Shown: one piece after another, positions 30,899-33,348 of the stretch | Position numbering within the stretch: the first letter of the stretch is position 1 | Layout: every line of letters begins with the position of its first letter | DNA from: a virus | DNA length: 33,348 nt | Virus record (IMG/VR): IMGVR_UViG_3300028025_002231 | Span: 1 to 33,348 of that record | Reading direction: 5' to 3' (one strand) | Program-made: the position numbers and the translations under genes | The notes under the pieces: generated by a model | Told to the model about the DNA's origin: nothing | The model's database searches: none | The model's input: the letters and a program-made list of their open reading frames with translations, nothing else

Positions 30899-30914
30899 TC
30901 GATTTGGCCTATCG

Positions 30915-30989
30915 GCTGGTTCGATGCCTTAATCGGCTTGACCGCTGGTTCGATGCCTTAATCGGCTTGACCGCTGGTTCGATGCCTTA
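30915..30989. repeat. 29-bp tandem direct repeats (2.6 copies)
   Basis: Two identical 29-base units starting at 30915 and 30944, and a partial third at 30973, each beginning GCTGGTTCGATGCCTTA. They fill the gap between the 3' ends of the primase and the convergent HTH gene. Iteron-like replication sequence, regulatory repeat or a local slippage duplication are the options; sequence alone does not decide. Confidence 0.9.
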
Positions 30990-31286
30990 GTCCGAAGTTT
31001 TGCGCGGCCTCCCCCTGCGCCCGGTGGGGGCTGGCGCCGGCTCGGCCGCTGGGGCCGCTGGCCCGGGCGCCGGCTCGAGGGCGCCCAGCAGGGCGGGGGC
31101 CAGGGCTTCGAGCATGCCCAGCACGCCCAGCAGTCGGACCGCTGAGGCACTGGGCGCCCGCTGGCCTGCGGCCCACTTTCGAAGGGTAAACACCGGCACG
31201 CCCAGTAGATCAGCGGCCCGGGCTTCAGAAAGCCCCCGGCGGGCGATCAGGGCCAGTAAATCAGTAGAGAATTGTTTATCGGTCAT
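30987..31286 (-). CDS. HTH DNA-binding protein with AT-hook
   Basis: 99 residues from ATG 31286; TTG at 31298 is in frame but less likely. The N-terminal domain LALIARRGLSEARAADLLG, then VPVFTLRKWAAGQRAPSAS (residues about 18-52) is an Xre/Cro-like helix-turn-helix. A hydrophobic helix follows (VRLLGVLGMLEALAPALLGA), perhaps for dimerisation, then a Pro/Ala linker. The end GRRGRPRK (residues 89-96) holds the RGRP core of an AT-hook that grips the minor groove of AT-rich DNA. It is the last gene of the second early operon. It is a likely regulator of early or late promoters, role inferred. Confidence 0.8.
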   Translation of the reverse strand: MTDKQFSTDLLALIARRGLSEARAADLLGVPVFTLRKWAAGQRAPSASAVRLLGVLGMLEALAPALLGALEPAPGPAAPAAEPAPAPTGRRGRPRKTSD

Positions 31287-31305
31287 ATCAGGGTCCAATT
31301 GGAAA

Positions 31306-31327
31306 GCCCCCGGGGTTGACCGGGGGC
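31306..31327. terminator. GC hairpin between HTH gene and small membrane gene
   Basis: GCCCCCGG (31306-31313), loop GGTTGA, CCGGGGGC (31320-31327): eight perfect pairs, closely similar to the hairpin at 28328. On the minus strand only TTTCC follows, so termination would be weak; it could lower expression of the HTH gene behind it. Confidence 0.55.
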
Positions 31328-31340
31328 GGGGGTTACGGGG

Positions 31341-31427
31341 TTATTTGCGAAAGATCAGGGATAAAAGGATCAGGATCAGCCGGGCCAGCACTGCGGCCCC
31401 GCCGACGATCAGGGCCAGGGCGCTCAA
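31341..31427 (-). CDS. Possible 28-aa single-pass membrane protein (TTG start)
   Basis: 28 codons with a TTG start that overlaps the previous stop as TTGA and a GGGGG-type ribosome site six bases upstream. Product: SALALIVGGAAVLARLILIL and a short RK end, a single hydrophobic helix with positive C-terminus. It fills an otherwise empty gap of about 100 bases. The weak start codon makes it uncertain. Confidence 0.4.
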   Translation of the reverse strand: MSALALIVGGAAVLARLILILLSLIFRK

Positions 31428-31615
31428 TCGGTGCCCCCATAAGCCCGCTCATAGCGGTCTACAAATCGAGCGATTCGCAGATCCTCCTCAAGCGATTCGA
31501 TTTCTGCGACGGCATCGCCTAATGCCCGCTGCAAATCAGCGATCCGGGCCAGTAGGCCCGCAGTGGTCAGATCTCCCCGGGAATACGCGGCCCGCTCCAA
31601 TTCTTCGTCGGTCAT
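31424..31615 (-). CDS. 63-aa coiled-coil hypothetical protein
   Basis: 63 residues, overlapping the gene before it by ATGA. Long helix with heptad-like spacing (TTAGLLARIADLQRALGDAV, AEIESLEEDLRIARFVDRYE). It may form a homo-oligomeric coiled coil or bind a partner. No family recognised. Real because of coupling on both sides. Confidence 0.7.
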   Translation of the reverse strand: MTDEELERAAYSRGDLTTAGLLARIADLQRALGDAVAEIESLEEDLRIARFVDRYERAYGGTD

Positions 31616-31962
31616 ACGGTGGTTTCCTTTGCTTTTTGTGCTTCGCTCAGTACCCGGGTAAAGCGCTCGAGTCCTACGCGGTCAACAGTGGTGTCCAAAT
31701 CAGCCAGGGCAGCGGCCCGGGCCTGCGGGACCGTCAGATCACGCGATGCGACTGGTAAACCCTTGTAAGTGGCGCTCACCCGGCAAACCCGGTACCCGCT
31801 GACCGGGTCCGACACAATCCAATTACCTTTGCCGGCGAGCACTGGTTCTCGGTGCAAGGCTAGGCGCCAAACATCGGACCCCCGGATGAAAATAATCGGG
31901 TGATACGGGATATCGTCCGACTGCACGCCCCCGGGCAGTGCGATCTTGAATGTTTTCTTCAT
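31612..31962 (-). CDS. 116-aa hypothetical protein
   Basis: 116 residues. The first part is beta-rich (KKTFKIALPGGVQ, PIIFIRGSDVWRLALHREP, GNWIVSDPVSGYRVCRVSA) and the last 40 residues are helical (VPQARAAALADLDTTVDRVG). No motif known to me. It stands between the GP88-like gene and the coiled-coil gene of the same operon, with a ribosome site AAGGGGG just upstream. Function unknown. Confidence 0.7.
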   Translation of the reverse strand: MKKTFKIALPGGVQSDDIPYHPIIFIRGSDVWRLALHREPVLAGKGNWIVSDPVSGYRVCRVSATYKGLPVASRDLTVPQARAAALADLDTTVDRVGLERFTRVLSEAQKAKETTV

Positions 31963-31974
31963 GGTTTCCCCCTT

Positions 31975-32637
31975 TTAAGCGGCAAGCCGCAGATTAATTA
32001 CCCGGTGGCGCGACCCATGAGCGGGAAAGCCTACGATAGTGTCCCGCTGACGCTGGCACAGCTGGCACGTCGCACAGCTGATATCAGCCCGCTGGGTCGC
32101 TGGGCAAACCACTACACGGCGACCCGCTGGGGTTACAGTGTTTTGCGATTGTGTGCTGGGCAGCACCACCACCACCGGCCCGGCCCCTGTATCGGCCAGG
32201 GTATCCGCATCGCGCAGATCATTGGCGCTTAGGTTGACGGTAAAGCCCCACTCGTTGGCGTGTCTGATCCAGCCTAGGCTTGCCCGGTCCCTATGGTGTG
32301 AATAAGTAAAGCCCCGCTTACCCCGGTTTGCCGCTACAAGTTGACCTAATTTGACCGCATCAACAGTGCCGTTTATCTGGGGTAGATCCCCGGCTTGATT
32401 GTGGCGCCACAGTTGACCCTCGGGCAGTGCTTCGATCGATTGACAAAACCGGCCCCAGTCGGTGCCGCGCGTGCCGGCGCTGACCGCTGCCCAGTGCAGC
32501 GCGAGCGGCCCGGATGCGGCATAGCACTCTGACCGCATGGCGCAGTCTGAGGGGCACGAATCCCGTTCAGTGGTGCTCACGGGTATCGGGCCAGTCTTAA
32601 CATTGGCCGATTTAAGGGAAAGATGAACCCGCATCAT
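31975..32637 (-). CDS. GP88-like Cys-rich protein
   Basis: 220 residues. It opens with NVKTGPIPVSTTERDSCPSD, then CAMRSECYAASGPLALHW: Cys28, Cys32 and Cys38 form a C-x3-C-x5-C-Y-A cluster like those of GP88-family and some Fe-S phage proteins. The middle has LPEGQLWRHNQAGDLPQI and ANRGKRGFTYSHHRD, typical of this group. The end has Cys188, Cys191 and Cys194 (CATCQLC) before VGFPAHGSRH. Two three-cysteine clusters suggest Fe-S or zinc binding. Its biochemical role is not known. It overlaps the gene before it by ATGA. Confidence 0.75.
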   Translation of the reverse strand: MMRVHLSLKSANVKTGPIPVSTTERDSCPSDCAMRSECYAASGPLALHWAAVSAGTRGTDWGRFCQSIEALPEGQLWRHNQAGDLPQINGTVDAVKLGQLVAANRGKRGFTYSHHRDRASLGWIRHANEWGFTVNLSANDLRDADTLADTGAGPVVVVLPSTQSQNTVTPAGRRVVVCPATQRADISCATCQLCQRQRDTIVGFPAHGSRHRVINLRLAA

Positions 32638-32942
32638 TTACCCCCTTTGCGAGCGCTCACGCGGACCACATGATAGGGGTCACCATGCGAAGTGTGGGCG
32701 GTGATCAATTGGTGCGACGGGTCAAACCGACGGGCGATTGTTTCCCAGTCGATCCGCTCACGCCCGGCCAACAATGACACAGTGGCGCGATGCAAGGTAC
32801 CGTCAATCGCTGGCATGTTCGAAGAGATGAGGAATTCCTTGATGGTGTCCGCTTCAGCGGTCAGATCAGCGGTCAGGGCTTTTATCTCGGCCAGGCGGTC
32901 AACGAGTCCAGCCAGGATAGCGGGGGCTTCGGGTTTAGTCAT
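32634..32942 (-). CDS. 102-aa hypothetical protein, first gene of right operon
   Basis: 102 residues from ATG 32942, with AGGA eight bases upstream; the in-frame TTG at 32948 is rejected. An N-terminal helix (ILAGLVDRLAEIKALTADLT, AEADTIKEFLISSN) is followed by IDGTLHRATVSLLAGRERID and WETIARRFDPSHQLITAHTS, a pattern recurring in phage early proteins of unknown role. It is first behind the right-end promoter region, so it is probably among the earliest genes expressed. Confidence 0.75.
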   Translation of the reverse strand: MTKPEAPAILAGLVDRLAEIKALTADLTAEADTIKEFLISSNMPAIDGTLHRATVSLLAGRERIDWETIARRFDPSHQLITAHTSHGDPYHVVRVSARKGGK

Positions 32943-33016
32943 GGTCAATCCTTTTTACAGTTACGGGTTACAGTGCGAGTGCTCAAAAATTAAGCAATTC
33001 CTAAGCACTCCCGATC

Positions 33017-33044
33017 ATCATAACACGGGTTGACCCACTGGGTG
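33017..33044 (-). promoter_or_regulatory. Putative early promoter with palindromic operator
   Basis: On the minus strand the extended -10 TGTTATGAT (33025-33017) follows AACCCG, the same CCGTG-n-TA core as at 21242 and 28246. The -35 area has no TTGACA; instead the palindrome CACCC-AGT-GGGTC (33044-33032) sits there. This looks like a promoter controlled by a protein bound at the palindrome (activated, or blocked). It would drive the operon from 32,942 leftwards. Confidence 0.5.
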
Positions 33045-33141
33045 ATAGATAGGGAAAACACCTAGTCAATCTTACGAAGTTGTAAGAATTGAGTTACCAG
33101 GGAGCAAAGTTATCGGTTGAACCCAATGGATATTGCTTTCC

Positions 33142-33156
33142 TGACCCGCTGGGTCA
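33142..33156. repeat. Perfect palindrome TGACCC-GCT-GGGTCA
   Basis: A 15-base perfect inverted repeat, second of three copies of the GACCC-n3-GGGTC motif in the right-end region (others 33032-33044 and 33336-33348). Typical size for an operator bound by a dimeric repressor. Confidence 0.75.
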
Positions 33157-33335
33157 TATCTAGGTAAGTGGTGACAAAGTGCCCTTTTATCTCAGGGGGT
33201 CGATTCTCGGAAAACGGAATTTCTTGTGCCGTTTCAAAAATCGCATAAATCGGGGGGTCGCCTGCGCGAAAGGCGCAACTGTCACAATCGCCCCCGCCCC
33301 CTCGGCGCCAAACCCGGCACCCGGCGGCACCCGGC

Positions 33336-33348
33336 GACCCGCTGGGTC
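33336..33348. repeat. Palindrome GACCCGCTGGGTC at window end
   Basis: Third copy of the palindrome; may continue beyond the window. It is preceded by three ACCCGGC repeats (33312, 33319, 33329). Confidence 0.7.

Follow-up and report, generated by a model that had tools for sequence, protein, structure and literature searches.

Palindromes between the divergent early and terminase operons of DSL-LC05-type phages as putative operators of an HTH autorepressor and possible late activator

Gene layout and palindromes at the right end of the window

The IMG/VR record IMGVR_UViG_3300028025_002231 is a linear virus record of 33,348 bases, and the window analysed here spans all of it (positions 1-33,348). 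Among annotated phages, only Phage DSL-LC05 (OR003940) matches it at the DNA level. This phage was assembled from a lake metagenome, carries P22-like structural genes and is lytic by prediction (PMC10611076). The right end of the window holds a leftward early operon (32948-30987) and then a gene-free stretch in which the record stops (Table 1); in DSL-LC05 and other relatives, a rightward terS-terL-structural operon follows beyond this intergenic region. The window lacks about 4 kb including terS and terL, and its own late promoter lies beyond the record end. No other IMG/VR contig carries an exact copy of the 34-mer from the window end, so the terS side was read from relatives. The record breaks at the last base of a perfect palindrome (33336-33348) and several relatives also end in this region, which may be explained by assembly breaks at repeats. 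Several of the early genes besides that for the helix-turn-helix (HTH) protein are widespread in relatives, and PADLOC, which lists defence and not acr genes, returned no match for five early proteins.

The initial annotation reported three palindromes in the gene-free stretch, and all were located where it had placed them: two are perfect (33143 and 33336, the former within 15 palindromic bases at 33142-33156) and one is near-perfect (33032), with a single mismatch in the outer pair and a perfect ACCC/GGGT core. L005, one of the nearest relatives, retains the sites of the window with small changes, and its counterpart of operator 2 reads GATCCGCTGGGTC. Exact copies occur only twice in the 33 kb, both in the gene-free end, where by our own arithmetic about 0.03 would be expected across the whole window. 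The related half-matches that had been pointed out in coding DNA, near 32086 and 32121, do exist; they are attributable to chance, because at up to two mismatches the whole window contains 22 matches against 16.4 expected. One palindrome had also been described as covering the -35 position of a putative promoter, and a minus-strand extended -10 indeed sits 10 bases from the core at 33033-33043. A strict sigma-70 scan of the window found nothing, since this -35 is non-consensus and the early promoter of the window is of the extended -10 type.

Table 1. Predicted genes, putative operators and promoter elements at the right end of the window
Feature	Sequence and position	Strand	Remarks
Putative operator 1	GACCCACTGGGTG, 33032-33044; core ACCCnnnGGGT, 33033-33043	-	Over -35 of predicted leftward early promoter
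Putative operator 2	GACCCGCTGGGTC, 33143-33155; with flanking T/A TGACCCGCTGGGTCA, 15 bases, 33142-33156	+	Kept in L005
Putative operator 3	GACCCGCTGGGTC, 33336-33348, final bases of the record	+	First of the middle array
Degenerate fourth copy	ACCCAATGGAT, 33121-33131	+	Perfect in near relative L005 (ACCCAGTGGGT)
Extended -10	TGtTATGAT, 33017-33025; hexamer 33022-33017	-	From sequence; equivalent promoters in relatives
First early gene, 102-104 aa	32634-32948; likely ATG 32942	-	Conserved in relatives
Early gene, DUF7227	31975-32637	-	PF23872, E=2e-82
Early gene, 116 aa	31612-31962	-	Conserved in a subset of relatives
Early gene, 63 aa	31424-31615	-	Conserved in relatives
99-aa HTH (XRE/MqsA-like) regulator	30987-31286	-	Final gene of the early operon; predicted palindrome binder
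Element of about 115 bp	33171-33285	no strand	Inverted repeats GTGACA/TGTCAC at its ends; located between putative operators 2 and 3

Conservation of the palindromes and their position at the two promoters

The primase protein led to 80 related loci. In most of them ACCC-n3-GGGT recurs several times upstream of terS. The terS-upstream regions of 45 non-redundant loci (40.5 kb) contain 219 copies, whereas the remaining 610 kb of these loci contain 8. Of the 2304 dyads (256 x 9 four-base dyads) tested in the stretch of about 0.9 kb before terS, none is more common. With a variable RNY centre (ACT, AGC/GCT, AAT, AGT and others), the word reads RACCC-RNY-GGGTY in full. The sites occupy a region of about 0.8 kb between the divergent early and terminase/structural operons, where the array continues for about 0.4-0.6 kb beyond the position of operator 3 to terS; complete or near-complete records show one main cluster, and the two such records of a palindrome-free clade carry one stray site each. 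The early-promoter signature was found in 111 IMG/VR stretches, and every new stretch examined carries genes of the same phage family. The 120/143 count is partly circular, because many loci from L084 upwards were retrieved by the promoter signature itself, and the independent set is the fair one.

The initial annotation had taken the palindromes for a multi-operator switch or an origin, a reading open to doubt if relatives lost them and kept the flanking genes. The palindromes are conserved: almost every relative has them in this intergenic region, at fixed places in both early and late promoters, which supports the switch. Their distribution suggests binding sites probably kept across more than 100 related uncultured lytic phages. 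Three groups depart from the common pattern. L049-L052 have the HTH gene and degenerate sites only; L074-L082 keep the HTH gene and the early operator and miss the phased late operator described below; L067-L071 have lost, or never had, the HTH gene and the palindromes. Other repeats lie upstream of terS in this last clade, e.g., CGTGTTAC-n4-GTAACACG in L069/L070, which suggests that it uses a different regulator. The middle array of L074-L082 contains tandem GATCC[AG]CTGGGTGC words, in places about 16-17 bp apart, all in the same intergenic region.

On the early side, read leftward, the operator usually fills the spacer of a strong promoter, TTGACA-n5/6-ACCCnnnGGGT-TAnnnT. Among the primase-selected relatives, which were not chosen by this arrangement, the -10 abuts the operator at 22 of 86 early-side sites and lies at 11-13 bp from 12 more, with almost none among the middle sites, and the strict form TTGAC-n-operator-TAnnnT is present in 22 of 42 array-bearing loci. 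In a second class the operator lies on the -35, one helical turn further. The 33032 site of the window belongs to this class, and its offset of 10-11 bp from the -10 is common to L009, L019, L020, L037, L047 and L056. Both positions would block RNA polymerase, as expected of a repressor site, and overlap the early core promoter, as in a dual phage switch of the phi29 p4 kind. The early promoters score as strong (9.6/12) and the late promoters as weak (7.9/12, compared with 6.9 for shuffled sequence). A block composed of an operator, AAGGGAAAGCACCTAGAAACTTTTTTC and an early promoter is conserved after the second early-side operator in many relatives; the window carries the operator-AAGGGAAAGCACCTAGAAACTTTTTTC block in reverse orientation beside 33032.

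On the late side, terS starts at a conserved CACTATG, and a TA...T -10 hexamer lies 15 or 16 bases before its ATG in 131 of 133 leaders, so that a leaderless or nearly leaderless terS mRNA is expected. The annotated terS start of DSL-LC05 (33277) lies too far downstream; the CACTATG start is seen, e.g., in L044 and L017. In 126 of 133 loci the terS-proximal operator is centred 47-49, 57-60 or 67-69 bp upstream of the ATG (roughly at -44, -54 and -64 from the expected transcription start), distances set apart by whole helical turns. For 60 non-redundant promoters this corresponds to a vector strength of R=0.86 at 10.5 bp (Rayleigh p about 5e-20). Common descent of three families does not explain these distances, since the terS-terL DNA tree of 109 loci requires at least 34 changes between distance classes, a count that recombination between promoter and gene could inflate. 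Spacings from operator to operator are unphased (R=0.03), and looping between operators was rejected on this ground as the source of the phasing; a neighbouring A-tract was rejected as the phased element, being more weakly phased than the operator (0.66). In the relatives, therefore, as would be needed for activation, the late site lies upstream of a weak promoter on a fixed face of the helix; the window itself stops short of it. Phasing relative to the promoter, weak late promoters and the lack of phasing between operators together fit contact of an activator with RNA polymerase, and we infer that the terS-side operator occupies an activator position.

The HTH protein as candidate binder

The likely binder of the palindromes is the 99-aa HTH protein, whose counterpart in DSL-LC05 is annotated as 'repressor protein C'. 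In loci spanning primase to terS, its gene is present in 93 of the 94 loci that have three or more sites and was found in no member of the palindrome-free group of five, L067-L071, a co-occurrence in which the independent absences are few and all belong to one clade. No other recognised DNA-binding gene tracks the sites. The small terminase subunit was considered as the binder and rejected: in L067-L071, where the sites are missing, TerS is about 80% identical.

The AF2 model of the protein has five helices forming an XRE domain, with pLDDT mostly 92-97 over residues 1-70; the predicted structure comprises an N-terminal HTH of the five-helix HTH_3/XRE fold and a short disordered tail. Its Foldseek neighbours are HigA2, C.AhdI, MqsA and P2 C, with probabilities of 0.99-1.0 but E-values of 0.03-0.2. 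The window protein scores just below the Pfam cut-off (21.5 vs 23), and 18-22 of 50 family members match HTH_3 or HTH_31 at E<=0.01. Compared with the PDB, the family profile matches MqsA best, weakly (E=0.0027) and over the HTH only. The MqsA models PF15731 or TIGR03830 are matched at E<=0.01 by 16 of 50 members (best 3.2e-4 and 4.3e-7), and by the window protein at this threshold not at all.

MqsA contacts its operator ACCT-n3-AGGT through Asn97 (N97) and Arg101 (R101) (PMC4901048; operator also PMC4894380). This operator and ACCC-n3-GGGT have equal half-site spacing and three of the four core half-site bases in common (PMC4901048, PMC4894380), and the profile-PDB alignment places N97 and R101 opposite F33 and K37 of the window protein. 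In L074-L082, K37 of the recognition helix is replaced by H, and the array words there are mostly GATCC-n3-GGGTGC; as a single event, this joint change is suggestive only. By sequence and fold of the HTH, the MqsA and HigA2 antitoxins are thus apparently the nearest relatives of the 99-aa protein, which itself does not seem to belong to a toxin-antitoxin system: the N-terminal zinc- and toxin-binding domain of MqsA and an adjacent MqsR gene are absent, no toxin partner was recognised, and its neighbours are phage early genes. In contrast to a toxin-antitoxin autorepressor, it is predicted to be both repressor and activator.

A proposed early-to-late switch and its alternatives

We consider it probable that the palindromes are operators (RACCC-RNY-GGGTY) of a phage HTH autorepressor that also activates the late operon of these non-integrating phages. 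The identity of the operator, its early position, its phased late position, the promoter strengths and the co-occurrence with the HTH gene were established by comparison of loci. An operator in the early core promoter, a phased site upstream of the late promoter and the difference in promoter strength fit occlusion and face-of-helix activation by one protein. Host RNA polymerase would start the early operon, the last gene of which yields the HTH protein, presumably a dimer on the palindromes. As it accumulates, the protein would occlude the early promoter and repress its own operon, and at the terS-proximal operator it would touch RNA polymerase from the same helix face and turn on the late operon. 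By titration or cooperative binding, the one to eight middle operators would probably adjust the timing, which is the weakest step of the proposal.

The phages lack a recognisable integrase, hence we would regard this as an early-to-late switch of the lytic cycle rather than an immunity switch. No tyrosine integrase (PF00589) was found in the window or 11 relatives and no PF00239 member (serine integrase/resolvase) in the 11 relatives searched; together with the finding that none of 84,980 bacterial and archaeal genomes holds a related prophage with the promoter signature, this makes an immunity system improbable. The group does not appear to exist as prophages and in this respect departs from a lambda-like lifestyle.

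The closest system by logic is p4 of the Bacillus phage phi29, an early protein that acts between divergent operons: it represses A2b/A2c, early promoters whose -35 its sites cover, and activates the late A3 from upstream (PMC3100819). It differs in that p4 has another fold, acts with p6 and uses four sites of the form CTTTTT-n15-AAAATG, compared with an XRE/MqsA-like HTH and up to ten 13-bp palindromes here. At OR/PRM of phage lambda, a dimer of the HTH protein CI occludes one promoter and, at the divergent promoter, activates transcription from a site at about -42, immediately ahead of the -35; the activated transcript is leaderless. CI maintains lysogeny, whereas no integrase was found in the present phages, and their regulator lacks a CI-type C-terminal domain. 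The operon layout resembles that of the Aca autorepressors, in which a phage early operon made up of small variable genes ends with the gene for a small HTH protein and an inverted repeat lies within the core promoter (PMC9410906). Aca proteins are known only as repressors, and their system does not include late-promoter activation from such a site. The controller (C) proteins of restriction-modification systems are small XRE dimers that both activate and repress from adjacent palindromes. One of them, C.AhdI, is among the Foldseek neighbours mentioned above, but the HTH gene lies outside any restriction-modification locus and the operators differ.

A pure repressor would account for part of these observations: it would block the early promoter, and from the upstream site block or trap RNA polymerase at terS by contact repression or looping, the late genes being switched on otherwise. 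The early operator position is clearly repressive, repression is the usual role of Aca and MqsA-type HTH proteins (PMC9410906, PMC4894380), and L074-L082 keep terS though they have no late operator, which indicates that late activation would not be universal. However, helical phasing to the promoter, weak late promoters and unphased operator spacings are what an activator predicts, and the late operator lies upstream of the -35 and not over the promoter; we regard repression alone as rather unlikely. Binding by another phage protein or a host factor, which would leave the promoter logic unchanged, is improbable. Binding by the HTH protein is a prediction and other early genes are also widespread, but it is the sole recognisable DNA-binding protein that follows the sites, and for TerS the site-less clade argues against it. 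A site of a host regulator might be enriched in bacterial genomes, whereas 257 Gb of bacterial and archaeal genome sequence gave 9 hits of the early-promoter signature, scattered and unrelated, about the chance level by our own arithmetic.

The origin that the initial annotation had offered as its second reading, with the array serving as replication iterons or as a packaging (pac/cos) site, fares worse and is very improbable. It draws on the repeats, the AT-rich stretches and the conserved 115-bp inverted-repeat element that lie together upstream of terS. The palindromes nevertheless stand at fixed or phased distances from promoter elements, L067-L071 keep terS, the 115-bp element and the rest of the region with neither palindromes nor HTH gene, and the cumulative GC-skew extremes of L003 (30.2 and 36.4 kb) lie off the array. 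An artefact of chance or of the composition of GC-rich noncoding DNA, suggested by the unremarkable window total at two mismatches, has practically no likelihood in view of the enrichment in relatives (219 vs 8 copies), the first rank among the dyads and the conservation.

We found no earlier description of late-gene control in DSL-LC05-type freshwater phages, a group represented among annotated phage records by DSL-LC05 alone, one metagenome-assembled genome. Sequence alone yields a specific model with a named protein, sites and promoters. The terS side is an unusually clear natural record of helical phasing, in which an activator-type site moved at least 34 times, each time by whole turns and with no intermediates. 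If the model is true, a lytic phage uses an HTH module of toxin-antitoxin type for dual switching, and the protein, with its short palindromic operator of the GACCCnnnGGGTC type, would be a candidate orthogonal repressor/activator. As a bolder and somewhat doubtful extension, an antitoxin-like MqsA-type HTH could be the master early-to-late switch of widespread uncultured lytic podoviruses, repressing its own early operon and activating the whole late operon through helical-phase-dependent contact with host RNA polymerase, with the one to eight middle palindromes as a titration timer or as a nucleoprotein scaffold formed with the 115-bp element.

The 115-bp element itself does not seem to be part of the operator system proper. 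Equivalents lie between the early promoter and the middle operators in L003, L028, L031, L044, L067, L068, L072 and L076, with the conserved blocks CCCTTTT, GGGGGT and GCGCGAAAGG, and the element is retained in L067/L068, which lack the palindromes, and in the clade with K37H. In nearly all members folding is better for the + strand than for the - strand; a single common RNA fold was rejected, as only the outer 6-bp GTGACA/TGTCAC stem persists in the consensus, and an Rfam scan of 30900-33348 returned no family. The element may function as an origin or packaging site, or as a structured RNA. In DSL-LC05, the 'hypothetical protein' WJZ48182.1 (L003:33492-33857), which is probably not a gene, crosses the operator array, and its HPVGQ repeats are translated palindromes.
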